A DNA stretch of 64,000 nucleotides from Halovenus rubra (lineage in GTDB: Archaea > Halobacteriota > Halobacteria > Halobacteriales > Haloarculaceae), in contig NZ_JAODIY010000010.1 in assembly GCF_026586665.1 (NCBI RefSeq), forward strand, positions 124,001-188,000, written 5' to 3'. Position 1 is the stretch's first letter. Each line of letters starts with the position of its first letter. The notes beneath the pieces were generated by a model. The model had not been told where the DNA came from and searched no databases. It saw only the letters and a list, made by a program, of their open reading frames with translations. Positions 2,730-18,176 of this stretch are shown in pieces. The position numbers were made by a program, and so were the translations under genes.

Positions 2730-3823
2730 GTGACACGATGGCGATGCCTGATCAGTCCACGGCACGCGGCTTGCTTGTCACACTGGTCGAAACGCCGTCT
2801 GTGAGTGGCGAAGAAAAAGCCTGCACGGAGCAACTCGTCACGTTCTTCGAAAACCACGACCGCGAGGTCTGGACAGACGAAGTCGGCAATGTCCACGCAC
2901 CAGCCGACGACGGCGTCCTCCTCACCTCACATATCGACACCGTTCCCGGAACGGTGCCTGTCCGTGTTGCTGAGACCGAAAACGGTAATCGGGCACTGTG
3001 GGGGCGGGGAAGTGTCGATGCAAAAGGCTCACTCGTCGCGATGGCTGTCGCCGCCGTCCAGACTGGCGCGAGCTTTCTCGGTGTTGTCGGCGAAGAGACG
3101 GACTCTCGCGGGGCCCGCCATGCAGTCGACACGCGGGATGCCCCCGACGCGGTCATCAACGGCGAACCCTCCGGTTGGGACGCAATCACACTTGGCTATC
3201 GCGGCATCGTGACCGCGACGTACACGCTTGCGACCGACACAACCCATACCGCAGGACCCGATTCCAACGCTATCCAGGAGGTAATTGACTGGTACACCCA
3301 CATCGAGCACGGGCTGACAGAGCTAGCAAGCGACACCGAGACCTTCGAGTGCGTGACCGGCAAGCCAGTTGCGATTGACGGCAGTCCCTCCGATGACGGG
3401 ATGACAGTTGAGACAACAATAGAAGTGGAGTTTCGCCTGCCGCCGGGTGAGAGCGTCACGACCCTGCAACAACGTATCGAATCAATGACTGATTCGGGCA
3501 GTATCGAGTGGACAGATGGCATCGAGCCGGTGATGGAGAGTCCACGCACGCCAGTCGCTCGTGCGTTCCGTGTCGCCATCCGTGACGCCGGCGGCGACCC
3601 TGATCTGCTTCGCAAGACCGGGACGAGCGACATGAACGTCTTTGCGAAAAGCTGGGATTGTCCAATGGTCACGTATGGCCCGGGTGATTCCACACTCGAC
3701 CACACGCCGAACGAACATCTCGTCCTGTCTGAACTCGACAGGGCAGTCGACGTGCTCACAGCTGCCACCGAGCAGTTGCTCGCGTCGAACGAACCAACCG
3801 AACAGACGGAGACAGAACCATGA
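2726..3823 (+). CDS. argE: ArgE/LysK: M20-family [LysW]-ornithine/lysine hydrolase
   Basis: This 365-residue M20 metallopeptidase releases free ornithine (or lysine) from its blocking group or from LysW. Metal and catalytic residues are visible: His69 and Asp71 in TSHIDTVPG, Asp98 in GRGSVDAKG, the Glu123-Glu124 pair in VGEETDSRG, and a C-terminal His in a DHTPNEH segment. In the linear LysW route this hydrolase replaces an ArgJ acyltransferase, and no ArgJ is present in the operon. It overlaps argD and argF by 4 bp at either end. Confidence 0.9.
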   Translation: MSDTMAMPDQSTARGLLVTLVETPSVSGEEKACTEQLVTFFENHDREVWTDEVGNVHAPADDGVLLTSHIDTVPGTVPVRVAETENGNRALWGRGSVDAKGSLVAMAVAAVQTGASFLGVVGEETDSRGARHAVDTRDAPDAVINGEPSGWDAITLGYRGIVTATYTLATDTTHTAGPDSNAIQEVIDWYTHIEHGLTELASDTETFECVTGKPVAIDGSPSDDGMTVETTIEVEFRLPPGESVTTLQQRIESMTDSGSIEWTDGIEPVMESPRTPVARAFRVAIRDAGGDPDLLRKTGTSDMNVFAKSWDCPMVTYGPGDSTLDHTPNEHLVLSELDRAVDVLTAATEQLLASNEPTEQTETEP

Positions 3824-4755
3824 GTCTGGCAAATTCCGGCCACAACCACACGAACACCGACGAGAACTGCTCTCTGGTAACTCTTGACGATCTTACACAC
3901 GAGGATCTCCACGAAGTCCTCGATACCGCCGCCGCACGAAAGGCGACGGCATCCGGACTTCGAGACCAGCCCCTTGCCGGTCAGACCATGGCCATGGTTT
4001 TCGAGAAACCATCAACCCGTACCCGTGTCTCGTTTGAAACTGGCATGACACAGCTTGGCGGCCATGCAGTATTTCTCGGTCCCGACGACATTCACCTTGG
4101 CCACGGCGAGCCGATTCGTGACACGGCACGGGCGCTCTCGGGGTACGTAGATTACATTATCGCCCGCGTCTTCGACCACACCGATGTCGTCGAGCTTGCC
4201 GAGTACGCGACCGTCCCAGTTATCAACGCACTGACCGACAACGCCCACCCGTGCCAGACACTGGCTGACCTGCTCACGATCCGTGAGCAGTTTGACGGTT
4301 TTGACGCCAGCGTGGCGTGGGTCGGCGATGGCAACAACGTCTGTCAATCCTTTACACTCGGTGCAGCGATGGCTGGCCTTGATCTGACAATTGCAACACC
4401 AGAAGGGTACGAGATTGACGACGAGGTGGCCAACCACGCAGCAGAGTTGGGCAACGCGCCACAAGAAACCAACAACCCTAAGACCGCTGTTGCGGACGCA
4501 GACCTCATCTATACTGATGTCTGGGTCAGCATGGGGATGGACGACGAGCGTGACCAGCGCTTGGCCGCGTTCGAAGGATTCCAAGTCACACCAGACCTCG
4601 TTGATGACCGTCCAATAATGCACTGTCTCCCAGCCCACCGCGGCGAGGAAATTACCGACGAGACACTCGAAAGTGAAAACGCCCTTGTCTGGCAGCAAGC
4701 CGAAAACCGCCTCCACGCACAGAATGGGCTGTTGGCGTGGCTGGACAACCAATAG
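3820..4755 (+). CDS. argF: Ornithine carbamoyltransferase
   Basis: This 311-residue enzyme makes citrulline from ornithine and carbamoyl phosphate in the cytosol. It carries all the classical motifs: STRTR (65-69) for carbamoyl phosphate, HPCQ (143-146), the SMGM ornithine loop (237-240) and HCLP (268-271). The first 20 or so residues are a polar extension before the core. It is the last gene of the operon; a GrpB-like gene on the other strand follows after 24 bp. Together with argC-B-D-E it takes activated glutamate to citrulline; argG and argH are not in the window. Confidence 0.97.
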   Translation: MSLANSGHNHTNTDENCSLVTLDDLTHEDLHEVLDTAAARKATASGLRDQPLAGQTMAMVFEKPSTRTRVSFETGMTQLGGHAVFLGPDDIHLGHGEPIRDTARALSGYVDYIIARVFDHTDVVELAEYATVPVINALTDNAHPCQTLADLLTIREQFDGFDASVAWVGDGNNVCQSFTLGAAMAGLDLTIATPEGYEIDDEVANHAAELGNAPQETNNPKTAVADADLIYTDVWVSMGMDDERDQRLAAFEGFQVTPDLVDDRPIMHCLPAHRGEEITDETLESENALVWQQAENRLHAQNGLLAWLDNQ

Positions 4756-4779
4756 AGCGAACAGCACCGAGAGGCTGAG

Positions 4780-5301
4780 TCAATCAGACACCGCATCATC
4801 AAGGACGCGCTGGATAAACTCGCTTTTGTTCGCTGTGTATCTCGTTCTATCGTCTGGATACTGCTCGGCCAACTCCACTTTCAGGGCGGCATACTCCTCG
4901 GCAACAGCCGGGTTCTCGCGGAGATACTCCCTGAATGCAATTTGCTCCGTATGGAACGTACTGTGTTGTGCTGTCACCGATAAATAATGTGTGCGGTTTG
5001 TGCGTGGTCCCTTCACAAAGAACAGTCGGTCCTGTACGTCTTCGTCGGGCCGCTGTTCGTATCCATGTCGCTCTAGAATCGGGGCGAGGTTATGGGCTGT
5101 TTCGTTGTCGTCGACAACTATCAAGATATCAATAATTGGTTTAGCCGGTATTCCGTCAATGGCTGTGCTTCCTACATGTTCGATAGATATAATATGTTCT
5201 TGGATTACAGGTAATAGTCGGTTTGCTTCTTTAAGGTAGTTGTCGTGCCATTCATCCTGGTGTGCCCGAAGTTCGACCGTGCCACGTTCAAGCCCGACCA
5301 T
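4780..5301 (-). CDS. GrpB/UPF0157-family nucleotidyltransferase-like protein
   Basis: This 173-residue protein belongs to the GrpB (UPF0157) family, which has a nucleotidyltransferase-like fold. The diagnostic segment is EHVGSTAIDGIPAKPIIDI near residues 40-59, where the G-S motif and the following Asp correspond to the metal/nucleotide-binding site. It begins with the usual VELRAHQDEW entry. The biological substrate of this family is not known to me. It is convergent with argF and divergent from cysS, with no sign of an operon. Confidence 0.85.
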   Translation of the reverse strand: MVGLERGTVELRAHQDEWHDNYLKEANRLLPVIQEHIISIEHVGSTAIDGIPAKPIIDILIVVDDNETAHNLAPILERHGYEQRPDEDVQDRLFFVKGPRTNRTHYLSVTAQHSTFHTEQIAFREYLRENPAVAEEYAALKVELAEQYPDDRTRYTANKSEFIQRVLDDAVSD

Positions 5302-5422
5302 ACTCCGATGTAGTATCTATGACTCATCGTTCTTTGGAACGGAACGTTCTGTGTCGGTACTTACAGAGACAGACCGAGATAGTACCACAGGTTTCAAACA
5401 CTCGCCCACGTAGATACGGGCA

Positions 5423-6913
5423 ATGACGCTTCGAGTGACAAACTCGCTCACCGGCGAACGAGAGGTCTTCGAGCCAGCAGACGCTGACTCCGTTTTGTTG
5501 TATTACTGTGGCCTGACGACCGCAGACCCGGCACATCTGGGGCACGCTCGCGGGTGGGCTCACGTCGATGTGATGCACCGCTGGCTGGAGTGGCTTGGCT
5601 ATGACGTTCACCATGTCGAGAACTTCACCGATGTCAACGAGAAAATCGTCGCTCGTGTCGGTGAAGATGGCGACAGTGAAGCAGCAGTCGCTCAGTCATA
5701 CGTCGGCGACATCATCGAGAACATGCGGTCACTCAACTTGCGTCGGGCCGAAGTGTATCCGCGCGTCTCCGAACACGTCCCTGAGATTATCGAGCTTGTG
5801 GAGACGCTCATCGAACGGGGGTACGCGTACGAATCAAACGGCTCAGTGTACTTCGACGTGGCCTCGTTTGACGAGTACGGCAAACTCTCGAATCAAGATA
5901 TTGATGAGATGGAGGCACAGGGGACGACAACCGAGCAAGCCGAGAAGCGCAACCCCGCAGATTTCGCGCTCTGGAAGGCTGGTGGCGTCAGTCCCGAAGA
6001 GATTGCGGACCACCAGCATCCGGAGGCTACGACAGCCAAAACAGCGGCGGAGACAGCCCAAACGTGGGAATCGCCTTGGGGACAGGGGCGGCCCGGCTGG
6101 CATATCGAGTGCTCGGCGATGAGCATGGCTCACCTCGACGAAACTATCGACATCCACGTGGGCGGGCAAGACCTTGTCTTCCCCCATCACGAAAACGAAA
6201 TCGCCCAAAGCGAGGCCGCAACTGGCGGCACCTTCGCCCGCTACTGGCTCCATGTTCGCTTACTCGATGCACCTGATGATGAGAAGATGTCCTCCTCGAT
6301 GGGGAACTTCGAAACTGTTGCCGAGGCCGTCGAGAGCTACGGCCCGAACGTCGTGCGAACGTTCTTGTTGTCGACCGCGTACCACAGTCCGGCAACCTAC
6401 AGCGACGAGACAATCGAGGAAGCTATCGAACGGTGGGACCGCCTCGAACGGGGTTACGAACGAGCGGTTGCCGCCGCCGACTCGGTCGACGCTGAAACAA
6501 AAGTCGGGGATGACGAGCTACAGACGGCAGTTACGACCGCTCGCGACTCCTTCGAGACTGCGATGAACGACGATTTCAACACGCGGAAGGCGATGACTGC
6601 GTTGCTCGAATTGGTTACCGCGGTTCACGCCCACGTCGATGAGTACGAGACCTACGACTACCGCCAGTTACGCCGTGCAGTTGAGACATTCGAGACGTTC
6701 GGTGGCGGCGTTCTCGGACTCGCATTTGGTGATGCTGCAGGCGAGAGCGACGTATCGATAGCCGAAGACCTCGTTGACCTCGTGCTTGACGTGCGCGAAC
6801 AAGAGCGTGTCGACGGCAACTACGAACAGGCTGATGCTATCCGTGATGACCTCGAAGCGCTTGGAGTAGAGGTACAAGATACAGGCAACGGCGTCGACTA
6901 CCGTCTCCCCTGA
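5423..6913 (+). CDS. cysS: Cysteinyl-tRNA synthetase
   Basis: This 496-residue class-I aminoacyl-tRNA synthetase charges tRNA-Cys. The HIGH-type motif is HLGH (38-41) and the KMSKS-type loop is KMSSS (288-292). Likely zinc ligands that select cysteine are Cys29, Cys230, His255 and Glu259. A halophile-type acidic insert with AEKRNPADFALWK and a longer EATTAKTAAETA stretch lies between about residues 160 and 220. The C-terminal part has the usual helical anticodon-binding domain ending in a DYR motif. It appears to be transcribed alone. Confidence 0.97.
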   Translation: MTLRVTNSLTGEREVFEPADADSVLLYYCGLTTADPAHLGHARGWAHVDVMHRWLEWLGYDVHHVENFTDVNEKIVARVGEDGDSEAAVAQSYVGDIIENMRSLNLRRAEVYPRVSEHVPEIIELVETLIERGYAYESNGSVYFDVASFDEYGKLSNQDIDEMEAQGTTTEQAEKRNPADFALWKAGGVSPEEIADHQHPEATTAKTAAETAQTWESPWGQGRPGWHIECSAMSMAHLDETIDIHVGGQDLVFPHHENEIAQSEAATGGTFARYWLHVRLLDAPDDEKMSSSMGNFETVAEAVESYGPNVVRTFLLSTAYHSPATYSDETIEEAIERWDRLERGYERAVAAADSVDAETKVGDDELQTAVTTARDSFETAMNDDFNTRKAMTALLELVTAVHAHVDEYETYDYRQLRRAVETFETFGGGVLGLAFGDAAGESDVSIAEDLVDLVLDVREQERVDGNYEQADAIRDDLEALGVEVQDTGNGVDYRLP

Positions 6914-6940
6914 GTAACGGTGTCGACAACGCCTGTTCAG

Positions 6941-7795
6941 TTACTGAACGCCACCGTATGAGGGAGTCTGTGTTGTGGACCGGCCGGCAGACTCGTTTGT
7001 GAGATCATCAAAGTCGACGTTGTCGAACTCCTCCGGTCGTTTCCCGTCTCTCGCATAGAGGTACAGCGTAGTTTTGACAACGCCTTGGAGAGTCTGAGAT
7101 ATAAGGAACGAGAGCAAGACACCGGAAAGAACCAACCCAATACCGACGATACCGACCCCAGTGTTGATAAGATAGATACCGGGCAACACGAACGGCACCG
7201 CAACGATGGCCCCGACAATGTTGATTGCGACAAGCGTTATTGGCGCTTCGCCCCAGGTCTGTTTGAATGTCTCTGCGCTCCGTTTGAACAGTCCTGTCGT
7301 CGAGGATTTCTCGAAGACGATGACGGGAACGACAAAGAACGTCATCAACGTCCATGCAACACCGAATATCGTGCCAAGAAGACGGGCAACCCGAGATTCA
7401 GAGTTCTCGATGGCGTTGATGAGCAGGCCGATTGTCGCACTGATTAGAGACCAGACGAACAGATGGCCTTTGACTTTCCACGCCGCAGCCATGCCTCGCT
7501 TCAGCGACGCATCGTTTCCACCCAGTACTTCCCGAGTCTGGTGTACCAGCCCAGCACTGAAGAAAGTCGTCACGAACGTGAGCGCAAGGTAGCTAAAGAA
7601 CAATCCAACAATCATCACCCCGTCCATCGTGACAGCCAGTAGACCGAACGTCACTCCGAAAAAGAGAGCGAGAAACGTTAGCCCAGCAATGCCACCGACA
7701 GCCGGGAACACGAAGAGTGACCGGTTGTTGTTCATCAGCGAAAGGCTGTCTTTGGTCAAGACGAGTCCTGTTTTGAGTCGCTGTAATAATCGCAT
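6941..7795 (-). CDS. Polytopic membrane protein, haloarchaeal DUF6159-like
   Basis: This 284-residue integral membrane protein has about six hydrophobic segments, at roughly residues 28-50, 55-80, 110-127, 140-160, 190-212 and 220-245. The N-terminal run RLKTGLVLTKDSL followed by a membrane pair resembles the family I know as DUF6159; function is unknown. The acidic C-terminal tail (from about residue 250) is cytosolic or surface-exposed. A TATA-like AGTTATATACG lies about 25-35 bp upstream of the start, near 7820-7830. It is convergent with cysS across 27 bp. Confidence 0.72.
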   Translation of the reverse strand: MRLLQRLKTGLVLTKDSLSLMNNNRSLFVFPAVGGIAGLTFLALFFGVTFGLLAVTMDGVMIVGLFFSYLALTFVTTFFSAGLVHQTREVLGGNDASLKRGMAAAWKVKGHLFVWSLISATIGLLINAIENSESRVARLLGTIFGVAWTLMTFFVVPVIVFEKSSTTGLFKRSAETFKQTWGEAPITLVAINIVGAIVAVPFVLPGIYLINTGVGIVGIGLVLSGVLLSFLISQTLQGVVKTTLYLYARDGKRPEEFDNVDFDDLTNESAGRSTTQTPSYGGVQ

Positions 7796-7905
7796 ATCGA
7801 CTCGTATGTCACATGTTCGTATATAACTCTAGGGGTATTTTCGCACCCAGAGACAAGATGATTCCACCACAGCACCAGCTACGAGTGAACGGGCACTTCG
7901 TTAAG

Positions 7906-7927
7906 TGTAATACAAAATACCATTACA
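7906..7927. promoter_or_regulatory. Inverted repeat TGTAAT-N10-ATTACA upstream of the TbsP-like gene
   Basis: Perfect 6-bp arms separated by 10 bp span one full helical turn, which suits a dimeric winged-helix protein. The site lies about 73 bp before the start at 8001 and about 46 bp upstream of a TATA-like CATTTATTCG (7973-7982). Autoregulation by the downstream protein is an inference. Confidence 0.4.
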
Positions 7928-8000
7928 ATAAAAGATGAGGTTAATTAATTGTAAGGATATTAGACATACCGACACATTTATTCGAGATAATCGCTGTTAA

Positions 8001-8831
8001 ATGGATATGGATTCTATTGAAATCCGTTCGTACTCTCACTGTGTGAGAAATCACATTGTGGATTCCCACGTCGACGAGTGGCGAGTCCGGAGTGCGAATA
8101 AGCAGTTCTTGATGGCTGTAATCGACACGCTTCAGGGGGACGACGGAGTCGGCCTAACGGTAGAGTGGCTTAGTGACTCCCAGACACTCAAAGACCTGGA
8201 GAAAGACTTCCTCATCGCAACGAAGATGAGCGAACTAACCGCAGACGACCATCTGTCCGTTCGAACCAGCACAGAGACGGCTGGAAACACGCCAACAGTG
8301 CTGCTAAGTCCGGAGAAAGCAGTATCACTGCTCCCGGTTCACGGTAACGAAGCCGTGCAGATCGAAATTACGAACGAGGCAGTTACAGAGCGGCTTTGGG
8401 AGAAGTACGACAATGAATGGGAGATAGCGATTCCGGTGTCAGTCGACACGCCACCGTATTCCCGGTTACTATCGCTTGCGGAACACAACCTGGGAACAGA
8501 TGTCAAAACAGATCTCGACAACGCGTACGGGGCAATCGAGAGTCGTGCACCTGACGATCGACCGGAACCAGTGACAGTCGGTCTGCTTGTTGGGGCAAAG
8601 CACGACTTGTTGTTACGTGACGTAGTCGAGTGGGCGGAGACATCGACACTCGCGACCCAAGGCACCGTTTCAAAGTTGAAACAGCAGCTCGAAGATGTTG
8701 GAGTGGTGTCGACGACAAGCGAGAACATCGGCGTTGGAAGGCCGCGTCAACGTCTTACGCTCGCCAAGGAAACGTTCGAATCGCTTTCGTCCGACGAACT
8801 CGTTGCCAACGTGCAGAGTGTCCTTCCGTAG
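8001..8831 (+). CDS. TbsP-like (DUF5821) transcriptional regulator
   Basis: This 276-residue protein resembles the haloarchaeal TbsP/DUF5821 family, DNA-binding regulators that in Haloferax act alongside the sugar-sensing regulator TrmB. The N-terminal ~180 residues form an alpha/beta sensor-like region. The C-terminal ~90 residues read as a winged helix: LLRDVVEWAETSTLATQGTVSKLKQ is helix-turn-helix, followed by a GVGRPRQRL wing. ATG at 8001 fits a TATA box 27 bp upstream. It is convergent with a mini-gene across a strong hairpin. The family assignment is from memory; a generic wHTH regulator is the fallback. Confidence 0.65.
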   Translation: MDMDSIEIRSYSHCVRNHIVDSHVDEWRVRSANKQFLMAVIDTLQGDDGVGLTVEWLSDSQTLKDLEKDFLIATKMSELTADDHLSVRTSTETAGNTPTVLLSPEKAVSLLPVHGNEAVQIEITNEAVTERLWEKYDNEWEIAIPVSVDTPPYSRLLSLAEHNLGTDVKTDLDNAYGAIESRAPDDRPEPVTVGLLVGAKHDLLLRDVVEWAETSTLATQGTVSKLKQQLEDVGVVSTTSENIGVGRPRQRLTLAKETFESLSSDELVANVQSVLP

Positions 8832-8832
8832 G

Positions 8833-8860
8833 GAAACTGACATAGAAACTTGTCAGTTTC
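8833..8860. terminator. Perfect 10-bp hairpin between convergent genes (bidirectional terminator candidate)
   Basis: GAAACTGACA (8833-8842) pairs perfectly with TGTCAGTTTC (8851-8860) around an 8-nt loop. It begins 2 bases after the regulator stop at 8831 and ends 1 base before the stop codon of the reverse-strand mini-gene (8862-8864). It therefore fills exactly the space between two converging transcripts. A TTTAT tract follows on the + strand. Confidence 0.6.
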
Positions 8861-8861
8861 T

Positions 8862-9002
8862 TTATGGACCGTAGTATCCAGCCCCCCCACCAGCGACTGC
8901 TGTCCCTGTCGTAACTTGTAGCAGTACGACCGCTACGAGCACCAGAAGGATGACTCGCCATCTATGCGTTCTAATCTGCCAGAAAGATTTGTATGTTAAC
9001 AT
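8862..9002 (-). CDS. Hidden 46-residue membrane-anchored mini-protein with Gly-rich tail
   Basis: Reading the reverse strand from ATG at 9002 gives 46 codons. The protein has a basic N-terminus (KSFWQIRTHRWR, residues 5-16), one hydrophobic segment (VILLVLVAVVLLQV, about 17-30), a possible signal-peptidase site after TAVA, and a short tail ending GGGAGYYGP. The order of positive residues, hydrophobic stretch and AVA site looks like a secretion signal, so the mature part may be only about nine residues or stay membrane-bound. A TATA-like element lies near 9035-9047. The ordered composition and the exactly placed hairpin beyond the stop support a real gene. Function is unknown. Confidence 0.6.
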   Translation of the reverse strand: MLTYKSFWQIRTHRWRVILLVLVAVVLLQVTTGTAVAGGGAGYYGP

Positions 9003-9228
9003 TGCACATACATCTTCCACAGCAAGTGGTGAAAAGATACTTAATAAAATTTACAAAATAAAATACTAATAAATTATATGAAATATCAAGTATTCAATAT
9101 TGTGAATATAAAACGGAGGTTGATATAGAAGAGTAATTAGACTATAGATTAATCTTATCTCACAGATGGATAAAGCATATCTTTTCCGACAGAAAGTGTA
9201 TAAATTCTGAGACCGATGTTCGTGATAT
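9003..9228. other. AT-rich divergent intergenic region before the CHAT-like gene
   Basis: This 226-bp stretch is much richer in A and T than the surrounding coding DNA. It holds the reverse promoter of the mini-gene and the forward promoter TGTATAAATT (9197-9206), about 27 bp before the ATG at 9229. An isolated GGAGGT at 9115-9120 is followed immediately by stop codons and does not serve a gene. No RNA gene or repeat was seen. Confidence 0.6.
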
Positions 9229-11307
9229 ATGGCTGATTCAGGCGTAGAGTTTGACAAGTTAGACGGTAATGAGATCGCAATTCGGGACACTGTTTCCCAC
9301 CAGCAGTATGTGATTTCGACAGTCGCTGGCACAATCACACCAGCTGCTTGCAAGTCATTTCCAGCACCGATCACCGAGGCCGTCCATCTCGATACCGAGA
9401 TAATCCGGATGGCCCAGAGCTACGGTGTCAATATTCGTGACAAAAGTGGCGAAATCCGCGAGAGACCCAACGCCAAACAAGAAAGGTATGCATTCGACAG
9501 CGGTGTACACTTTATAGAGATAGACGCACCTGTCAAGACGTACATCCGGGTTGAAGGACCGTTTGAGTATGCGGATAACAATACGGAAACCAGAATCAAG
9601 TGTGAGAAAGCACAGCTGACCATCGGTGCACGCGCCTGGCAATGTTATCCACAAGAGACGATTACCGTTACAGAGTCTCCTCACGACCTGATGGAGGCGC
9701 TATCGTATTTTGGGGATGCAATGACCACCGCCTCCCCCGAACGGGCCTTTCCGACGCTCCGAGGGTATCCCCCGGCATTACGCGTTGGAAACAGTCTCTC
9801 AATTCCCTCGTCGCTCTCGAAAGCGGAAGCTGGCGTAACACTAACCGTGCCACCGGAGCTGCCTGCAGTGTTGAGTGTTGCACCGCTGGCGTATTACCTA
9901 CTGGCACGGGTAAAGCCGGGTGAGCAGTTCACGCTCCAGACCGCGGACGGATTCACGTACACGCCCCCCGAAGATGACATCTCAACTGCCGTTCAATCAC
10001 TCCTACAAACGTGTTTCTACATGGACTGTCTCGTCAGGACAGAGGGGCTGTACCCGTTCAACTTGCACCATCGAAACGCCTTCGATGCCGCGACAGAACG
10101 TGAGTGGCAGTATGAACATCTGTACGAGCAATCACATCAAGAGCGGCTGCAGTCGTATCTTGAGGCCGATACCGAGCAGTTGTCTGAAGTGATGCCCGCA
10201 TTGCCACTCACAGCATTCGTTGAACCAGGTTCCACTGCGGTTGAAGCCTTGCCATATCTGGCCCCCGAGCTTGGGCTCATCAAGCCAGCAGACCCACCAC
10301 GATATAGCGGCGACGAGGCCCGAGAAAAGGTATTGTCTGCCTTCTCTCAGAATGCAGGAAAGAGCCGTTCTACGTCGCTGGTCTTTGACGACCGGGCCAA
10401 ATACATTGATGTACCCAAGACCGAAAGCCAGCAGACACTCTGGATTGGCGCGGGGATTCCGTTGAATGCGGCTGCAGTCGTTCTCGACGGCTACCGAAAT
10501 CAACGTCCCATAACGGGCGAGGCGGACAGCCCGACAAGGTTGACAGTGACCGTCGTCTGTAATGAGGCGTCGATGGACAAGGAGCTGGCCGAGGTACAGG
10601 AGATCATCGACCCACGCGATGACCTCCCCTTTGCTATCGACGCACAGTCCGGAGTGACAACCAGAGAACTCCGGCAGCTTATCGCGGAGGGAACCAATTA
10701 TCTCCATTTCATCGGCCATGCGACCTCCGAAGGGTTGGAGTGTCCCGACGGGAACCTCGATACCGAGACTCTCCAGCAAAATGAGGTTGAGATGTTCTTT
10801 TTGAACGCGTGTCAGTCATTCAAGCAGGGCGAGGGGCTCGTCGAGACAGGGAGTTTGGGCGGTGTCGTTACCCACGGCGACGTCTCGAACAAGTATGCGC
10901 TCGAAGCGGGGGGTCTTGTCTGTCAGTTGCTCAACGATGGCTTCCCACTCGGTGTTTGTCAAGAGATTCTCCGTCAGACGACGCCTATCGGTGGACAGTA
11001 TACTGTCGTCGGCAACCATGGTGCCATTCTCGCCCACCCCAAAGATGGGCCACCACATCTGGACTACATCGAGGAACGCGGCGACGACTACCGACTTACA
11101 ATTGAAACCTACACTGGTGGGTTTTCCCAGTACAAGGCTGGCTCCGTTATTGTACACAGGGTCGACCCCGAAGAGGGTTACCTCGCTCCGTCAACAGCCG
11201 CGTTCAATGTCGATAGGGAAACGCTCGACGACACATTGTCGGCTGTCGATACTCCCGTTGTCGTGGACGGACAGTTACAGCAACACGAAGCTATCGAGTG
11301 GTCGTGA
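9229..11307 (+). CDS. CHAT/caspase-like putative cysteine protease
   Basis: This 692-residue protein has no transmembrane segment or signal peptide and is probably cytosolic. Its C-terminal third resembles a CHAT domain (caspase clan CD fold): a strand ending in YLHFIGHAT gives catalytic-type His497, and FFLNACQS gives Cys528, each at the end of a hydrophobic strand as in caspases. GSLGGVVTHGDVSN and TVVGNHGAILAHP continue the fold. The N-terminal ~400 residues are mixed alpha/beta with no domain I recognise and may sense a signal or recruit substrate. The start fits a TATA box 27 bp upstream. The gene stands alone, so partner and substrate are unknown. The dyad is visible; protease activity is inferred. 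Confidence 0.68.
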   Translation: MADSGVEFDKLDGNEIAIRDTVSHQQYVISTVAGTITPAACKSFPAPITEAVHLDTEIIRMAQSYGVNIRDKSGEIRERPNAKQERYAFDSGVHFIEIDAPVKTYIRVEGPFEYADNNTETRIKCEKAQLTIGARAWQCYPQETITVTESPHDLMEALSYFGDAMTTASPERAFPTLRGYPPALRVGNSLSIPSSLSKAEAGVTLTVPPELPAVLSVAPLAYYLLARVKPGEQFTLQTADGFTYTPPEDDISTAVQSLLQTCFYMDCLVRTEGLYPFNLHHRNAFDAATEREWQYEHLYEQSHQERLQSYLEADTEQLSEVMPALPLTAFVEPGSTAVEALPYLAPELGLIKPADPPRYSGDEAREKVLSAFSQNAGKSRSTSLVFDDRAKYIDVPKTESQQTLWIGAGIPLNAAAVVLDGYRNQRPITGEADSPTRLTVTVVCNEASMDKELAEVQEIIDPRDDLPFAIDAQSGVTTRELRQLIAEGTNYLHFIGHATSEGLECPDGNLDTETLQQNEVEMFFLNACQSFKQGEGLVETGSLGGVVTHGDVSNKYALEAGGLVCQLLNDGFPLGVCQEILRQTTPIGGQYTVVGNHGAILAHPKDGPPHLDYIEERGDDYRLTIETYTGGFSQYKAGSVIVHRVDPEEGYLAPSTAAFNVDRETLDDTLSAVDTPVVVDGQLQQHEAIEWS

Positions 11308-11353
11308 GCCGCCAAATACCAGCCCGTACCATACTCTCACGAGAAAGAGAGCC

Positions 11354-11371
11354 GTGCTGTGGTGACAGCAC
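11354..11371. terminator. Hairpin between the convergent CHAT-like gene and ABC permease
   Basis: GTGCTGT (11354-11360) pairs perfectly with ACAGCAC (11365-11371) around a GGTG loop, within the 83-bp gap between two convergent genes. It could end transcription from either side. Confidence 0.4.
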
Positions 11372-11390
11372 AGGTCGGAAACGTACTGTC

Positions 11391-12653
11391 TCACTCGTAC
11401 CGAAGCGCGTCGATTGGGTCGACACGTGCCGCCCGCCAAGCCGGGTACAGTCCAGAGATGATACCAGTGACAAGGCCCATCGCCGACGCAATAGCAATCC
11501 AAATGTACGGGACAGTGAATCCGACTTCCGCGTACAGCGATGCGCCAAACCCAACAGCGAGACCGAGCGGAACACCGACAACCGCGCCAGCCAGACCAAG
11601 TAATACAGCTTCGGTCAGAAACAGCAACATAACCTCGCGGTTACGGGCACCGTTTGCTTTCATGATACCGATCTCTTTGGTCCGCTCGGTGACACTGACA
11701 AGCATAATATTGGCGATACCAAACGCACCGACAAACAGGGCAAGGACGCCGATACCAGTCACCAACCGGATGATGTCAGTTAACACGGACTCGATACCGT
11801 CGACGAGGTCAGCCGTCGACTGGACTGTGATACCGACATCACCGAGCACCTGGGTCGCGTCCGACGACTCGTTGAGATACGTTTCGACGCGCTTTCGCGT
11901 ATCCGAGACTTCGTCAGGCTGTGCGACCAGTGTGACCTGCCGGTACGCTGGCTGGTCAACGCCTTGGTTTGCTGACGTCGCAGTCGGCCCGGATTCCTGA
12001 TAATAGGGGTCTGTTGGAACATAGACTGTCGGCGAGAAGTCGCCAAACGAGCCGAACCCGCCGCGAGCCTGTGTGGCAATACCAACAACTGTGACTGTTT
12101 CACTGCCGTCTTCGCGGTTGACCGTTATCGTGTCTCCGACGGTGACGTTTGCGTCGAATCGCTCGACCGCTGACTCACTGAGGACAACCTCTCCCGAGAC
12201 ACCAGATTTGAAGGCGCTCCCGGAGACGATATCCTCCTCGGTGAACGCAGCAGGTGTCGTCGCAGTCAGGCTATCAAGAACGAGAGTCTGTCCGCTGTAA
12301 CTTACCGCAGTGATATCGACAGACCCACGGGGCAGAACAGATTCTACACCGTCGATATTCCGGAGTTGGTCAATGTCGTATGTCGTTACAGCAGGCAACG
12401 CAAAGCTATCGAGCGAGCCGGCAAAAAAGCCGCCATCGTCGCCAATTCCGACATCTCCAGTCACAACAAAGATCTCGCTGGCGGATGTCGACTCGAACTC
12501 GGAGACAACATCCGTCTGGACGCTCGTTCCAAAGCTGGCAAAGATGATGACCGTCGCAATGCCGATGACGATACCCACAACAGTAAGCGCCGACCGGAGC
12601 CGGTGCCCGGTCAGTGACCGCGTTGCCATCCTGAGCCCGTCACGGAGCTTCAT
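11391..12653 (-). CDS. MacB/LolC-type ABC transporter permease (FtsX-like)
   Basis: This 420-residue membrane subunit has the MacB plan: one N-terminal membrane helix (residues 22-43, VVGIVIGIATVIIFASFGT), a large extracytoplasmic domain (about 50-290) and three C-terminal helices (about 292-315, 345-370 and 375-400) of the FtsX type. The segment GIMKANGARNREVMLLFLTEA between them is typical. It forms one unit with the ATPase gene, whose stop overlaps its start by 4 bp. Such systems move lipoproteins, peptides or other surface molecules by mechanotransmission. The divergent LolA-like neighbour suggests a role in surface-lipoprotein handling, but that is inference. Confidence 0.9.
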   Translation of the reverse strand: MKLRDGLRMATRSLTGHRLRSALTVVGIVIGIATVIIFASFGTSVQTDVVSEFESTSASEIFVVTGDVGIGDDGGFFAGSLDSFALPAVTTYDIDQLRNIDGVESVLPRGSVDITAVSYSGQTLVLDSLTATTPAAFTEEDIVSGSAFKSGVSGEVVLSESAVERFDANVTVGDTITVNREDGSETVTVVGIATQARGGFGSFGDFSPTVYVPTDPYYQESGPTATSANQGVDQPAYRQVTLVAQPDEVSDTRKRVETYLNESSDATQVLGDVGITVQSTADLVDGIESVLTDIIRLVTGIGVLALFVGAFGIANIMLVSVTERTKEIGIMKANGARNREVMLLFLTEAVLLGLAGAVVGVPLGLAVGFGASLYAEVGFTVPYIWIAIASAMGLVTGIISGLYPAWRAARVDPIDALRYE

Positions 12654-13360
12654 GCTGTGGCCTCGGTCTCTTCGACTCGGGTAATCGTGCCGTCGGTCAT
12701 GTGGATGATGCGATCAGCTCGCTCGGCAATGCGCCGTTCGTGAGTGACGAGCAAGATTGTGTTACCCCGCTTGTTCGTCTCGGCCAGCAACTCCATGATT
12801 TCGTTCCCAGTCTCAGTGTCGACGTTCCCCGTCGGCTCGTCGGCTAGAATCAACGTCGGGTCCGTTGCGAGTGCACGCGCAATCGCGACCCGCTGTCGCT
12901 GTCCGCCACTCAACTCTCTGGGAAGGTGGTGGATTCGGTCGCCAAGTCCAACCCCTTCGAGGAGGTCCTGTGCGCGGGTCTGTCGTTGCGTTCGGTCCCA
13001 CTCAGCAAACACGAGGGGGAGAGTCGCGTTTTCAAGTGCAGTCAGCCGGGTCATCAGGTTGAATGTTTGGAAGATAAAGCCAAGCTGTGTCCCTCGAAGC
13101 TGTGCTCGTTCAGACTCCGAGAGAGTCGAGATATTTCGGGAATCGACCGTCACATTACCCGATGTCGGCGTGTCGAGTGCCCCGATAAGGTTCAAGAGCG
13201 TGCTTTTTCCCGACCCGCTGGGACCCATCACCGCCGTATACGAGCTTTCGGGCAGTTCAAGAGTTACGTCATCCAATGCCGTGACTGTCCCTCCTAGCTC
13301 GTATTCCTTTGTCACATTTTGTACGCGGACAACGGCCCCCGACTCCGATGACTCAGCCAT
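12650..13360 (-). CDS. MacB/LolD-type ABC transporter ATP-binding protein
   Basis: This 236-residue ATPase powers the adjacent permease. It has Walker A GPSGSGKST (46-54), Q-loop IFQTFNL, signature LSGGQRQRV (150-158) and Walker B LILADEPTG (170-178) followed by VDTETG. The long spacing after Walker A and the exact signature match the MacB/LolD branch. It is the first gene of a two-gene operon. Its promoter lies in the 88-bp region shared with the divergent LolA-like gene. Confidence 0.93.
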   Translation of the reverse strand: MAESSESGAVVRVQNVTKEYELGGTVTALDDVTLELPESSYTAVMGPSGSGKSTLLNLIGALDTPTSGNVTVDSRNISTLSESERAQLRGTQLGFIFQTFNLMTRLTALENATLPLVFAEWDRTQRQTRAQDLLEGVGLGDRIHHLPRELSGGQRQRVAIARALATDPTLILADEPTGNVDTETGNEIMELLAETNKRGNTILLVTHERRIAERADRIIHMTDGTITRVEETEATA

Positions 13361-13414
13361 GTCTCACAGGCTAGGGGCGGCAGCAGCGTGAATGTTTTGA
13401 CTGTACAAGGCAAA

Positions 13415-13424
13415 GGGTATAATT
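13415..13424 (+). promoter_or_regulatory. TATA box of the LolA-like gene
   Basis: GGGTATAATT is centred about 29 bp before the ATG at 13449, so the transcript would be nearly leaderless. It supports the chosen start. Confidence 0.55.
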
Positions 13425-13448
13425 GACTGAGGACCGTAACCTGTTTGA

Positions 13449-14936
13449 ATGGATATAAACGGCCGCGGCCGACTGGAAGTGGCTGTGTTGATTACCTTTG
13501 TAGTTGCGTCTGTTGGGGTTATCGCACTATCCGGCTTCGTTCTTGCTGACGACGAGAAGACCGGAGAAGAAGTCTTGACAGAGATTCAAGATACGTACAA
13601 TACTGCAGACTCACTCTCCGCAGAGACGGTCGTTACCGTCGAGGGTGAAAACGGCACCGAGCAGTTTGACGTGTCAGTTGCGGCGACGGACGACGGACAG
13701 CTCCGACTCAATGGGTCCAGCGGGAACCAGTACTTCATGTTGGGGACGAGCGACGAGACAGCATGGGCCTACGAGTCCGCAACCGGTCTCTCCGGTGTTC
13801 TCACCAAAACCGGCGAAGACACCGCAAGCGCTACCCTCCGGACTGGAACGGCAGAACGGCGTGGGGCGTTCAATGCCTTGCCGGTCGAAGATGTGAATTT
13901 AGATGATACCGTTGATGAACTCCGGTCAGAGATTGACGAGGGCGAGCTTCCCGCCGAATGGCAGGACGCCCTCGACGAACTACCCGGGAACGCAACCCTC
14001 GCCGAGGTCGCAGCGAGCGACGAGGTCAACGAGGTACTCCAGAACGAGTCACGCCCACGCACCGAGACTGCTGACGCGCCAGCCGCCGTGTCACTGCCCG
14101 AGCAGTGGACGGAGTTCAATGGCTCAATCGAGTTTAACGAGAGCAAAGTCGAGGCCGCACTCACGGAGTTCGACGCCGGTGAGGTGCCCGAAGAATGGGC
14201 CGAGGCTGAGTGGCCAAACAGCATCGAAAAAGTGCGGACAGAGGTTGTTGCAATGGTGAGTGACGACAACCGCTCCGAATCGAACAGCACGGTCAAGCTT
14301 GTCGGTACGCCAACAGTCGACGGAGAAGAGACACACGAGCTATTGATTACGTCGACCGAACACGACCACGAAACGCGTCTGTGGGCCGGCGTTGACTCAA
14401 ACGAGATACACAAACTCGAACAGTCGTCGGCCGAGGTGACAGTCACTGTCGACGTACTCGAAACGCGGTTCGACGTCTCTCCCGCAGACAGCACGTTCGC
14501 ACCACCTGGCACAACGGAGGTTACACGCATCAACGCGACAACGACCGACGAGGCAAGCGAGTTCGGTACCGACGCCTCGTTCGAAGTCGCAGTTCCCGGC
14601 GATACATGGACGTTCGAGCACGGAACGACAGTGACAACGGAGATGTCGATTTCGGTCAACGCTTCGTTCAACACTGACGGTTCCACCCTGCTGGGTTCCT
14701 ATACAGACGGTGACCAGTCACTACTGGTAACGCAGGCGACTGCTGCTCACGACGAGTGGAACGACACTGAGACCAGCACCGTCGGAGACTATGAGGTCGT
14801 TATCACGGAGACCGACGAAGGGATTGCCGGGAGTTGGACAAACGGTGAGACGACAACGACCGTCGTCGGTGAGTTCTCGGAGAGCAAATTACGCTCGATA
14901 ATTGAAGCGATTCGCTACGAAGCAACGGTCGGTTGA
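13449..14936 (+). CDS. LolA-like membrane-anchored protein
   Basis: This 495-residue protein starts with one membrane anchor (about residues 12-33) and continues as a very acidic extracellular region. The first ~85 residues after the anchor (EVLTEIQDTYNTADSLSAETVVTV onward) and the later LVGTPTVDGEETHELLI...TRLWAGVDSNEIHKLE and ETRFDVSPADSTFAPP segments resemble the LolA/LolB lipoprotein-carrier fold known in haloarchaeal families. An acidic helical insertion sits at about 150-280, with two similar GEVP/GELPAEW repeats. It is divergent from a MacB/LolD-type ABC pair, so a joint role in surface lipids or lipoproteins is plausible but unproved. Confidence 0.65.
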   Translation: MDINGRGRLEVAVLITFVVASVGVIALSGFVLADDEKTGEEVLTEIQDTYNTADSLSAETVVTVEGENGTEQFDVSVAATDDGQLRLNGSSGNQYFMLGTSDETAWAYESATGLSGVLTKTGEDTASATLRTGTAERRGAFNALPVEDVNLDDTVDELRSEIDEGELPAEWQDALDELPGNATLAEVAASDEVNEVLQNESRPRTETADAPAAVSLPEQWTEFNGSIEFNESKVEAALTEFDAGEVPEEWAEAEWPNSIEKVRTEVVAMVSDDNRSESNSTVKLVGTPTVDGEETHELLITSTEHDHETRLWAGVDSNEIHKLEQSSAEVTVTVDVLETRFDVSPADSTFAPPGTTEVTRINATTTDEASEFGTDASFEVAVPGDTWTFEHGTTVTTEMSISVNASFNTDGSTLLGSYTDGDQSLLVTQATAAHDEWNDTETSTVGDYEVVITETDEGIAGSWTNGETTTTVVGEFSESKLRSIIEAIRYEATVG

Positions 14937-14957
14937 AGAGAGTAGAGGCAGCCACGT

Positions 14958-16187
14958 TCACAGCGCCAGTGGTACCAGTAAGACCCCCATTAATGTCATC
15001 CGTCGCGACCCGAAGCGAGCAGGAATCAGACCGACAACAGTAGCAACAACGAAAACCGCGAAACCAATCAGCCCTGTAAACGCAGTTACCAACACACAGA
15101 GAAAGAGCAACACGCTCACCGAGAGCCAAGCGTTGTCAACCGAGCCGACGATATTGAGATACCAGTCACCAACTTGGAGGACAAGCACGAACCCAACAGC
15201 AGCAGCAATAGCGACACTGCCAAGCAGTATCGGAAGGTTGTGCGGAACATTCGTGCTCTCAATGGCAACAAGGACGCCAGTCCGCGGGTTTCCAAGAGCA
15301 ATAAGAGCGAACAGAGCAAAGACAGTATTAGCTGTACTAACGCCGCTGCTGGCGACGACAAATGCGCGGGGGCCACGGTAAGGAACGACGACCATCGCTG
15401 CACCCGCCGCGATGGCTGCCGAGATACCGGGGAGATAGCCGACAAACGCACCACACAGTGTGCCGATAAAGCCAACGCAAAGAACAACTCTCCGTGAGGT
15501 CGTCACCCGGCTGTCAGCTTGTGGCGGAACGCCTTCACCACCCACCGCTTCGATAAGGATAGGTGCACCAAACAAGCCCGCAAAGAGCGGTGCGAGCATG
15601 TTACCCGCTGGAAGGACGCCACCTGCCGGGATATCGAGAGTGAGCGCACCAAGTGCACCGCTAAAGCCAAGCGAGAGCCCTCCGCCAAGACGGGCAACCA
15701 TCGTTCGTTCAGTGATGACGAGAAGCAATGAGACAGCACCAAGCAGTATCGAGAGATGGGCAGCAATCGTTGGGTACAATCGTGTCATCCCGAAGGTGAC
15801 CGGAATCGCAAGCGGAACCGCGAATGCGACAGCAAGAACGCTTCCAGCCGCGGAGAGACGAAGTGCTTCACGACCCCTTCCCTGCAAAACCAGCTTGTGT
15901 CCCGGTAGTGCTGTGGGTGCCATCGCTGGGTCAGGGACACCGAGGGCTAGTGCGGGGACGATATCAAGAAATGTATGTGTGACTCCCGCCGCCAACATTG
16001 CCCCACCGACCCAGAGCGGGTCACCCGGAACTGCGGGCGCAAACCCGGCAAGCAACAGCGCAAAATTGTTCGCGTGGAGGCCGGGGACGAGTCCGCTCAC
16101 TGTTCCGAGCGCGATACCGCCGAAAACGAACAGTAACGTCATTACTGTTGCCTCCGGCGCGACTCCGATTGTGATGTCTGCCCCCAT
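14958..16187 (-). CDS. TctA-like (DUF112) tripartite tricarboxylate transporter permease, archaeal form
   Basis: This 409-residue protein has about ten to twelve hydrophobic segments. The N-terminal GTVSGLVPGLHANNFALLLAG and the mid GTLCGAFVGYLPGISAAIAAGAA are the repeated G-x-x-PG motifs of the TctA permease family. It is shorter than bacterial TctA (about 500), as usual for archaeal members. No tctB or tctC partner lies nearby, so the substrate is unknown. It is convergent with the LolA-like gene and divergent from the DtxR-box promoter. A TTTAAG element near 16215-16220 may be its TATA box. Confidence 0.78.
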   Translation of the reverse strand: MGADITIGVAPEATVMTLLFVFGGIALGTVSGLVPGLHANNFALLLAGFAPAVPGDPLWVGGAMLAAGVTHTFLDIVPALALGVPDPAMAPTALPGHKLVLQGRGREALRLSAAGSVLAVAFAVPLAIPVTFGMTRLYPTIAAHLSILLGAVSLLLVITERTMVARLGGGLSLGFSGALGALTLDIPAGGVLPAGNMLAPLFAGLFGAPILIEAVGGEGVPPQADSRVTTSRRVVLCVGFIGTLCGAFVGYLPGISAAIAAGAAMVVVPYRGPRAFVVASSGVSTANTVFALFALIALGNPRTGVLVAIESTNVPHNLPILLGSVAIAAAVGFVLVLQVGDWYLNIVGSVDNAWLSVSVLLFLCVLVTAFTGLIGFAVFVVATVVGLIPARFGSRRMTLMGVLLVPLAL

Positions 16188-16310
16188 CCTTGCTCACTGG
16201 TCGCGTCTTCGGTCTTAAACAGCAGTGTGGACTGAGACACGAACAGAAAGATCAGAGACTACCCCTCACAACCACGGTACCGCTGCTTTTGTTGTGTGTC
16301 ATGCTGTTAT

Positions 16311-16324
16311 TTAAGGTAACCTAA
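16311..16324. promoter_or_regulatory. DtxR/SirR-type metal-regulator box, distal site
   Basis: TTAAGGTAACCTAA has near-dyad symmetry and matches the half-sites of DtxR-family operators (TTAGG...CCTAA). It lies directly upstream of, and touching, the TATA element of the gene at 16359. Its centre is 34 bp from the second box. Confidence 0.6.
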
Positions 16325-16333
16325 AATATAAAC
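16323..16333 (+). promoter_or_regulatory. TATA box between two DtxR-type boxes
   Basis: AAAATATAAAC is centred about 31 bp upstream of the ATG at 16359, so the transcript start falls inside the second DtxR-type box. Binding at either box would block TBP/TFB or the start site. Confidence 0.55.
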
Positions 16334-16344
16334 AACTGCGCTTT

Positions 16345-16358
16345 TTAGGTTAGCCTAA
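16345..16358. promoter_or_regulatory. DtxR/SirR-type metal-regulator box, proximal site abutting the start codon
   Basis: TTAGGTTAGCCTAA is almost the classical DtxR core, with perfect TTAGG/CCTAA arms. It ends at the base before the ATG at 16359, covering the predicted transcription start. Haloarchaeal SirR/Idr regulators belong to this family and respond to iron or manganese. Confidence 0.7.
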
Positions 16359-16691
16359 ATGATGACGACACCTTTGAGCAATATCCGTGATTTCATTAAC
16401 TCACTGGCGACTGAGTCGGGCGAGTACTATTTAGCCTGTGCCCGGACAGGGGACGAGCCAGTGCCAGCAGCGGGCTATCGGTTCGACTCACAGGAGCAGG
16501 CACGCGCTGGTGCTAGAGCGACCAAGCAGTACCGTGCACTGCTCCGACGCTACGACGAGCGCGCCCCACAGTACGAGATTGTCGTTTGTCGGGCTGGCTA
16601 TCAGGAGTGGCCACGCAAAGAGGACGAGACTGGGGAAAAGGAGTGTCGACACAAAGAGTCAGTCGCCGGGAAACAGGAGGGACTGGCATGA
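16359..16691 (+). CDS. Small haloarchaeal protein (DUF7552-like), putatively metal-regulated
   Basis: This 110-residue soluble protein has a compact alpha/beta core: IRDFINSLATESGEYYLACARTGDEPVP followed by RFDSQEQARAGARATKQYRALLRRYD and YEIVVCRAG. The last ~25 residues are charged and probably disordered. I recall similar haloarchaeal proteins under the label DUF7552, with no known function. Two ATG codons (16359 and 16362) are adjacent, and the first abuts a DtxR-type box. The stop overlaps the next gene by 4 bp, so the pair is one operon. A function in metal homeostasis is suggested only by the promoter. Confidence 0.65.
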   Translation: MMTTPLSNIRDFINSLATESGEYYLACARTGDEPVPAAGYRFDSQEQARAGARATKQYRALLRRYDERAPQYEIVVCRAGYQEWPRKEDETGEKECRHKESVAGKQEGLA

Positions 16692-17479
16692 AGACAACGC
16701 TGGTTGATAAGGCACTGTCGCGGGTCGCCGAGGAACGGACACTACTCCGGAACCTGCAGGCCGCGTTCAATCAGTTCGAACAGGAGGTCCGGCAGCTTTC
16801 GACGGCTCCAACCGGTGGTTCACCACGCCAGATGACCGATGGTGGTGTTACCCCAGTCTCAAAGGCGGTGGGGGCTGCGGGCAGTGGAACTGACCGTTGT
16901 CAATCAGTTTGTGAGGTGTTCGCCGAGCGTGTCAAACCACACAGTACGGAGGCAGTTGATGGCGACGAGCCAGTGTTAGAGACAGTTCGTCACGAGTTGG
17001 GCGACGAGGTAGCACTGGCACTGGCACCGACGACTGACACAAGTTACGATAAGAGAGTTAAGCAGGGCATCCTCGCCGCCAGTCAACAGCGACGGACCGA
17101 AATCGAAGCTATGTGTAATGCGCTCGACGCTGAAGAAGTCTCAGTTGAATCGGCACGGGAACTGGTCACAGTAGTAGAGCAGTTCGCTGCGGACGAGGAA
17201 CCACTCCTTTCGCTCAGTTTTCGAGCGTTACAGAGCCAACACGAGGAACTAGCAGGCTATCAGGACCGCATCAAGAACCGTCTTGAACAGCGCCAGTGCC
17301 ACCTCCATGGGTCGACGGGAGTCGACGCAAAAATCGGTGTAACCCACCTTTCGCTTGCCGAACACCTCTACAGTTCGTTCACGAGTTCGTATCCGGTGTT
17401 GTCTACGCTCACACAGTTGTGCTCGTGTTGCCAAGCGAGTCAGCGCGAAGTACGTGACCACCTTGTTCGGCGCGTCTAA
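16688..17479 (+). CDS. Helical haloarchaeal protein (DUF7260-like), second gene of the metal-box operon
   Basis: This 263-residue protein is largely helical and soluble. The start ATG at 16688 overlaps the upstream stop (ATGA) and gives the natural N-terminus MKTTLVDKALSRVAEERTLL. The pattern of an N-terminal helix, the central ETVRHELGDEVALALAPTTDTSYDKRVKQG and a later arginine-rich helix resembles the family I know as DUF7260. A Cys cluster near the C-terminus (CSCC) and scattered His residues might bind metal, but no defined motif is present. It shares the DtxR-box promoter of the preceding gene. Confidence 0.62.
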   Translation: MKTTLVDKALSRVAEERTLLRNLQAAFNQFEQEVRQLSTAPTGGSPRQMTDGGVTPVSKAVGAAGSGTDRCQSVCEVFAERVKPHSTEAVDGDEPVLETVRHELGDEVALALAPTTDTSYDKRVKQGILAASQQRRTEIEAMCNALDAEEVSVESARELVTVVEQFAADEEPLLSLSFRALQSQHEELAGYQDRIKNRLEQRQCHLHGSTGVDAKIGVTHLSLAEHLYSSFTSSYPVLSTLTQLCSCCQASQREVRDHLVRRV

Positions 17480-17520
17480 CGCCACGTGGTCGCCACTTAG
17501 CACCACAGTCGGTCGTCAGA

Positions 17521-18093: not shown

Positions 18094-18176
18094 TGGAAGA
18101 CATATAGCCCAGCCCCGTAAAACCGTCTTCGGAACGGACCAGCACGAATTTTATATCCGAGCAGTAATATGAATCT

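Follow-up and report, generated by a model that had tools for sequence, protein, structure and literature searches.

We examined a 64,000-nucleotide stretch of the Halovenus rubra genome (contig NZ_JAODIY010000010.1, positions 124,001 to 188,000; hereafter the window) and, within it, a gene for a CHAT-like cysteine protease of clan CD, which lies beside the gene of a TbsP-like transcription regulator and a small open reading frame (ORF) for a candidate membrane peptide resembling the family DUF7503 (Table 1). The initial annotation of this DNA had placed at 9003-11307 a gene for a 692-residue protein with His497 in the motif FIGHAT and Cys528 in LNACQS. The ORF and its sequence bear out the protein and both motifs, and the gene is where it was said to be, although its coding sequence starts with the ATG at 9229 and not at 9003. 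What is new here is the family's companions, that is, a haloarchaeal CHAT-type system with an almost obligate microprotein partner and a regulator. DUF7503 (PF24335) and DUF7504 (PF24336), both found next to such proteases, are Pfam families of unknown function. No paper naming either of them was found in the literature searched, and none of the titles and abstract beginnings covered makes a connection between the CHAT-like proteases of haloarchaea and either DUF7503 or TbsP.

Table 1. Features of the protease locus, in window coordinates (position 1 is the first nucleotide of the window)
Feature	Position	Strand	Basis or remark
TbsP-like transcription regulator, 276 aa, TbsP_N and C-terminal helix-turn-helix	8001..8831	+	Pfam E 6e-35 and 4e-23
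DUF7503-like membrane peptide (candidate), divergent from protease	8862..9020	-	52 codons from GTG or 46 from ATG at 9002
AT-rich divergent intergenic region, 208 bp, peptide to protease	9021..9228		G+C 0.264 against 0.570 in the window
TATA-like TATAAATT	~9199-9206		~27 bp before protease ATG; putative promoter role
CHAT-like clan CD cysteine protease, 692 aa	9229..11307	+	ORF, model, fold matches, conservation
Catalytic His497 codon (predicted)	10717..10719	+	within FIGHAT; H in 139/142 proteins
Catalytic Cys528 codon (predicted)	10810..10812	+	within LNACQS; C in 139/142 proteins
Protease domain plan (predicted)			residues ~1-140 beta-rich N-terminal; middle alpha/beta; ~436-604 caspase-like catalytic; short beta-rich C-terminal

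A caspase-type fold, set beforehand as the test of the initial annotation, was indeed predicted. The AlphaFold2 model of the protease, built from 80 aligned sequences, reached a predicted local distance difference test (pLDDT) value of 88.7 and a predicted template modelling (pTM) score of 0.90; it is a prediction and not a solved structure. When the model was compared with VIA-align, residues ~325-604 superposed on clan CD proteases, with the highest score for gingipain R (Z 19.0, 240 residues, 3.0 A), followed by SAVED-CHAT (8tl0; Z 17.4, 167 residues, 2.5 A), separase (Z up to 15.7), Csx29 (Z ~13) and caspases (Z ~12). The catalytic part of the predicted model has the caspase-like alpha/beta fold of clan CD, and the family has the conserved His/Cys dyad, which was found intact in 139 of 142 non-identical proteins (165 before removal of copies), as the initial annotation had anticipated for homologues. 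Both residues are also invariant in a 35-row alignment (A1, from which 9 of 44 full-length loci were left out), in an 80-row alignment (A2, comprising the window and 79 of 80 loci without the partial L125; a further alignment, A3, was made of the window protein together with 43 of the 79 loci) and in all 30 members of an earlier locus set, in which L001 was not counted. The three dyad-less proteins are products of genes whose match to the family profile lies chiefly in its first half. Given the predicted caspase fold and the intact dyad in 139 of 142 family proteins, the window protease is very probably active.

By sequence, the assignment is less direct. Residues 445-533 match the Pfam CHAT model (PF12770) with 18.5 bits (E 0.0015), and in the genome search the right region scored 20.2 bits; both values fall under the curated cut-off of 24, which is why we call the protein CHAT-like. 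It had no match in NCBIfam, matched no PADLOC model up to E 1, and found no sequence match in the PDB. The N-terminal domain (~1-140), when compared alone, gave a best VIA Z of 8.4 (a beta-galactosidase domain) and values of ~6-7 for mutarotase-type sandwiches, which we judged too weak to name its fold; Foldseek gave no match to this domain at E <= 0.001. Since the protein lacks a transmembrane-like stretch (19-residue hydropathy maximum 1.33) and has an excess of acidic over basic residues (102 against 51), the cytosolic location suggested in the initial annotation is reasonable. As side observations, the paralogues at L166, L167 and L168, whose profile match lies mostly in the first half, have lost both catalytic residues, and in three genomes (G004, G044 and G052) a gene in the score range of such dyad-less paralogues lies 1.5-2.4 kb from a TbsP-like match.

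The gene had been described as an orphan, which it is not: relatives were detected (E <= 1e-5) in 219 of the 243 genomes that were sampled from the order. A draw across the phylum yielded relatives in 40 of 246 genomes, four of the 40 outside the order. An alignment query of genome contigs returned at least 552 relatives, of which 80 were retained, whereas a single-protein query gave none. Named relatives among the matches listed include members of Haloferax, Haloarcula, Halorussus, Haladaptatus, Natrinema, Halococcus and Halovenus; the closest of those listed, at 43-51% identity, are from Halovenus salina, Halovenus aranensis and metagenome bins, and in the samples searched the clade of the window gene was seen in its own genus only. 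Copy number varies, with up to eight CHAT-like matches per genome in a sample of 59 genomes that also underlies the linkage counts below. Family copies occur on 25 haloarchaeal plasmid records, where one is annotated as 'caspase family protein', one as 'CHAT domain-containing protein', one carries no annotation and the rest are 'hypothetical protein'. No relative was found in the phage records searched, nor in viral contigs searched with alignment A1.

In the first branch of the family, a large one, the companion is DUF7503, a single-span membrane peptide of ~44 residues that usually ends in Gly-Pro; two example peptides matched the Pfam family with E ~1e-20. Each of 59 DUF7503 matches, found in 42 of the 59 genomes, lies beyond the 3' end of a CHAT-like gene and on the other strand, tail-to-tail and with 6-276 bp between the matches; every genome of the sample that has DUF7503 also has a CHAT-like match. 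Among separately fetched loci, whose genomes are partly shared with the sample, 101 of 102 peptides (85 of 86 unique ones) are likewise tail-to-tail with a CHAT-like gene, and the stop codons of peptide and protease are often few bases apart. Multi-copy genomes hold several such pairs; genome G031, for example, has five DUF7503 genes, each adjoining its own CHAT-like gene. Seen from the protease, a DUF7503 match accompanies 56 of the 68 high-scoring CHAT-like genes. Two irregular arrangements were also seen: the lone exception among the 102 peptides (L088:6485-6631, plus strand) lies 1.4 kb from a CHAT-like gene on the same strand, and a tandem pair of DUF7503 genes adjoins a single CHAT-like gene at G056:C1:486534-486796.

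The peptides look coding, because their nucleotide differences are concentrated at codon position 3 (347 at first, 247 at second and 880 at third positions, of 1474 differences in 71 non-independent pairs). Their consensus starts short and acidic and continues through Tyr-Leu and His/Asn-Pro-Arg/Lys into a hydrophobic stretch, which is followed by an Ala-rich part and a short variable tail before Gly-Pro. The proline is kept in 86 of 87 peptides, Arg or Lys after it in 84 and the Gly-Pro end in 75, while Phe (84), Gln (83) and Gly (83) are conserved within the hydrophobic core.

Neighbourhoods were drawn for 72 of the 80 loci with a codon-model gene caller, whose gene ends are rough (the start of the window protease was missed). 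These 72 loci are mainly of the first branch, and at 25 of them the protease is preceded by a gene for a protein of a DUF7504 cluster, one example of which was confirmed with Pfam; DUF7504 occurs at many other places in these genomes as well. The loci L058, L059, L061 and L089 are among those in which such a protein stands directly upstream of a DUF7503-linked protease. Another neighbour of ~230 aa (c10), directly upstream at 14 loci, was rejected as a partner; it recurs with the same further neighbours, which we read as shared synteny.

The second branch consists of 17 genes that form one side of a tree branch with support 100 (the tree was computed from 123 proteins, reduced from 142 through 138; the three dyad-less rows were among those left out). 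In 16 of the 17, the exception being L149, the next gene on the same strand is tbsP, and the downstream protein of one example scored 390 bits as TbsP, for which the cut-off is 300. Counted from the regulator, TbsP scores above the cut-off in 47 genomes, and in 31 of these a CHAT-like gene lies at most 600 bp upstream on the same strand, although in one of the 31 (G053) this gene belongs to the first branch. Of 33 CHAT-like genes scoring 400-650 bits, 29 are followed by TbsP; among the other four, L144 and L159 fall outside the second branch in the tree. On the other side of the protease, the same type of gene, presumably serine hydroxymethyltransferase-like (glyA-like), was present in 14 of 19 loci examined. 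The order glyA-like / CHAT-like / tbsP recurs at loci between L143 and L171 across several haloarchaeal families. At the Halococcus-type loci L071, L081 and L132, first-branch proteases with no detected DUF7503 are followed by a TbsP-family gene, which in G053/L132 scores above the cut-off.

Both kinds of companion have a counterpart in the window. The regulator scores 160 bits against the NCBIfam TbsP equivalog NF047393, under the cut-off of 300, and is by this measure a TbsP paralogue; the above-cut-off TbsP of the same genome (319.6 bits) is on contig C45. Of the two TbsP-family genes found in this genome, one is 0.4 kb from its sole full-length CHAT-like match. The candidate peptide ends in ...GGGAGYYGP and was the top of 726 small window ORFs when a broader DUF7503 profile was used (E 0.002). 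In two relatives of the same clade (L034/L052 and L035/L053), this divergent position is taken by a clear AANPRL...GP peptide, and a TbsP-like gene comes after the protease. In this clade, the linkage of peptide and protease has been kept despite a switch from tail-to-tail to head-to-head layout and is therefore not merely a matter of transcript overlap; the idea that convergent overlap regulates the pair is weakened accordingly.

The AT-rich region upstream of the protease, pointed out in the initial annotation and interpreted there as a hint of recent acquisition or unusual regulation, is real: nowhere in the window does G+C over 200 bp fall lower than within it, and its G+C deficit of 0.32 exceeds that of any of 77 relatives measured, the largest among these being 0.18 in the sister locus L053. 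It is the space between two divergent genes, those of peptide and protease. The protease gene itself is compositionally not foreign (G+C 0.550; G+C at third codon positions 0.602, compared with 0.599, 0.674 and 0.622 in the TbsP-like, cysS-like and permease genes, respectively), which leaves a recent arrival without support.

From the predicted fold, the conserved dyad, the DUF7503 and tbsP linkages and the presence of both kinds of neighbour in the window, the most economical reading is regulated proteolysis, in which a dedicated protease would act together with a single-span membrane microprotein, and a TbsP-type regulator would be the output in some branches, namely the lineage of the window and the sister branch of the family. 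The window protease would then be an active cytosolic clan CD enzyme through which a small signalling module of haloarchaea is switched by proteolysis, a reading that we hold tentatively, at a probability of about 0.42. Protease, peptide and regulator probably act as one unit, since genes of these kinds are found side by side even in distant relatives. The N terminus of the DUF7503 peptide and its conserved Pro-Arg/Lys would face the cytosol, where the protease would bind or cut the peptide in an Arg/Lys-directed manner. Such cutting would let a signal from the membrane or from stress act on transcription and on the state of the cell; in the clade of the window, it would do so through the TbsP-like regulator. 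The peptide may be a substrate, an anchor or an inhibitor of the protease. Since several clan CD enzymes favour Arg or Lys, the Pro-Arg/Lys at the membrane edge is, by analogy, a plausible cut site.

Several observations weigh against such a module. Of the 68 high-scoring CHAT-like genes, 12, that of the window included, have no DUF7503 match; all of the other 11 were fetched, and two (L135 and L138) have a diverged candidate ending in Gly-Pro in the same place. TbsP is present without an adjoining CHAT-like gene in 16 of 47 genomes, among them that of the window with its copy on C45, and the TbsP-like gene of the window lies on the opposite side of the protease in comparison with the sister loci. 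The window peptide itself scores 13.3 bits against Pfam DUF7503 (profile positions 17-42, E 0.064), below the cut-off of 27, and a peptide was found in three of seven members of the window clade. The conserved Arg/Lys may just fix membrane topology, and catalysis, cleavage and the interaction of protease and peptide are all inferred from sequence. Finally, the activity that PMC3615174 describes for Haloferax extracts is directed at Asp, and none could be measured there on substrates of trypsin, cathepsin or papain; this does not agree with an Arg/Lys protease active at rest.

Other explanations have to be weighed. The small ORF of the window might be a chance one, with the TbsP-like regulator as the only partner of the protease. 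Its E value, already 0.064 with Pfam, rises to 0.53 among small ORFs of the window and the fetched loci together, and no recognisable peptide was seen at the locus in four clade members, Halovenus salina, Halovenus aranensis and two others. Yet it ranks first among the small ORFs of the window with the broader profile, adjoins the protease and ends in Gly-Pro, and two clade relatives have the clear NPR...GP peptide in the same divergent position, so that we consider chance unlikely. It is unlikely, too, that the peptide is a secreted signal, in which a leader would be removed by AxA-type cleavage and a Gly-Pro-ending tail of 8-10 residues released, the protease maturing it or answering the tail inside the cell. 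The peptide does resemble a signal peptide with its hydrophobic core, Ala-rich stretch, short variable tail and usual Gly-Pro end, and peptide signals typically combine a conserved leader with a variable tail; but the conservation of Phe, Gln and Gly in the core exceeds what a signal peptide needs, and the protease has no membrane-spanning stretch.

A toxin-antitoxin-like pair, in which a hydrophobic peptide toxin is silenced by the convergent protease transcript and the protease is an antidote or a bystander, would suit the size and hydrophobicity of the peptide, the tail-to-tail layout and the closely spaced stop codons. We regard it as very improbable, for overlap at the 3' ends is impossible in the head-to-head loci of the window and two relatives, and the partner protease keeps its catalytic dyad. 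The initial annotation had brought up defence or regulated cell death, and an abortive-infection effector can be imagined whose protease, once activated by infection or stress, cleaves proteins of the cell or converts the peptide into a toxin that permeabilises the membrane. The CHAT proteases SAVED-CHAT and Csx29, which are among the fold matches, act in CRISPR-linked systems, copy number is variable, plasmids carry family copies, and PADLOC models hit two of the window neighbours, both parts of ABC transporters. These matches, however, hit generic ABC-transporter parts, the eleven neighbours scanned are ordinary, and the protease itself drew no PADLOC match; no relatives turned up in the phage records and viral contigs searched, the family is near-universal in the order, and its second branch keeps neighbours such as tbsP. 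We found no positive evidence for defence and consider it quite improbable. A bolder variant of the proteolytic switch would be a minimal caspase-effector pair, in which the protease cuts the ~44-residue membrane peptide at Pro-Arg/Lys and thereby sends a membrane-acting or cell-fate signal, a miniature archaeal counterpart of caspase and gasdermin wired through a TbsP-type regulator; this, too, seems to us improbable.

The near-obligate pairing with one microprotein family names a candidate substrate or regulator of the protease, and the unexplained caspase-like activity of these archaea thereby becomes testable by gene deletions in a genetically tractable archaeon. Haloferax volcanii has DUF7503, DUF7504 and TbsP, and in other Haloferax species the protease adjoins DUF7503. 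Very high caspase-like activity has been reported for Haloferax volcanii, while archaeal genomes were said to be without clear caspase homologues (PMC3615174). The present family, which is spread across the haloarchaea, has an intact dyad and is predicted to adopt a caspase fold, bears on this activity, and it is a candidate source, although not an obvious one because the published activity is Asp-directed. The tbsP linkage sets the protease beside a regulator connected with central metabolism and motility; TbsP, together with TrmB, is tied to glucose metabolism, motility and biofilm formation (PMC13286277).

Among known systems, the enzymes SAVED-CHAT and Csx29/TPR-CHAT (Craspase) have a His/Cys dyad, as does the window protease, and the likeness (Z 17.4 and ~13, see above) lies in the caspase-type catalytic part. 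The first ~150 residues of the window protease are, however, beta strands in the model and not TPR; neither a Cas/CRISPR gene nor adjacency to cas7-11 was found among the eleven scanned neighbours, and the partners of the haloarchaeal family are DUF7503, DUF7504 or TbsP. Gingipains are secreted and separase cuts cohesin. These two gave top structural scores over a range that begins at residue 325, ahead of the catalytic part, but identity is ~10-13% and neither shares this gene context. The cyanobacterial HetF, likened here by description alone, is a CHAT-type putative protease with a role in development and cell division, and differs in having TPR and a transmembrane segment (PMC8406250). For the partners, the known family names are DUF7503, DUF7504 and TbsP (NF047393); genes resembling the first and the last of these are present in the window.

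The eleven window neighbours scanned with Pfam span 3820-19166. Before the protease, they include genes for a carbamoyltransferase, GrpB, cysteinyl-tRNA synthetase and DUF6159, and after it those for an FtsX-like permease, an ABC ATPase and TctA. The ABC ATPase matched PADLOC mad3 (E 4e-35) and the permease the PADLOC CARF-LolE model (E 3e-16); a defence system made of the two was set aside, and the matches were read as shared ABC-transporter domains (Pfam ABC_tran, MacB_PCD and FtsX). Elsewhere in the genome, contig C42 (L175, ~42158-42477) carries a decayed CHAT-like relative, of which fragments corresponding to residues ~1-72 and 237-296 remain. It lies between the gene of a 93-aa membrane protein and that of a presumably ArsA-like ATPase, and is flanked by the same genes as the intact copy in Halovenus salina (L156). 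The copy at the Halovenus salina position has decayed in the genome of the window and the window copy is intact elsewhere.

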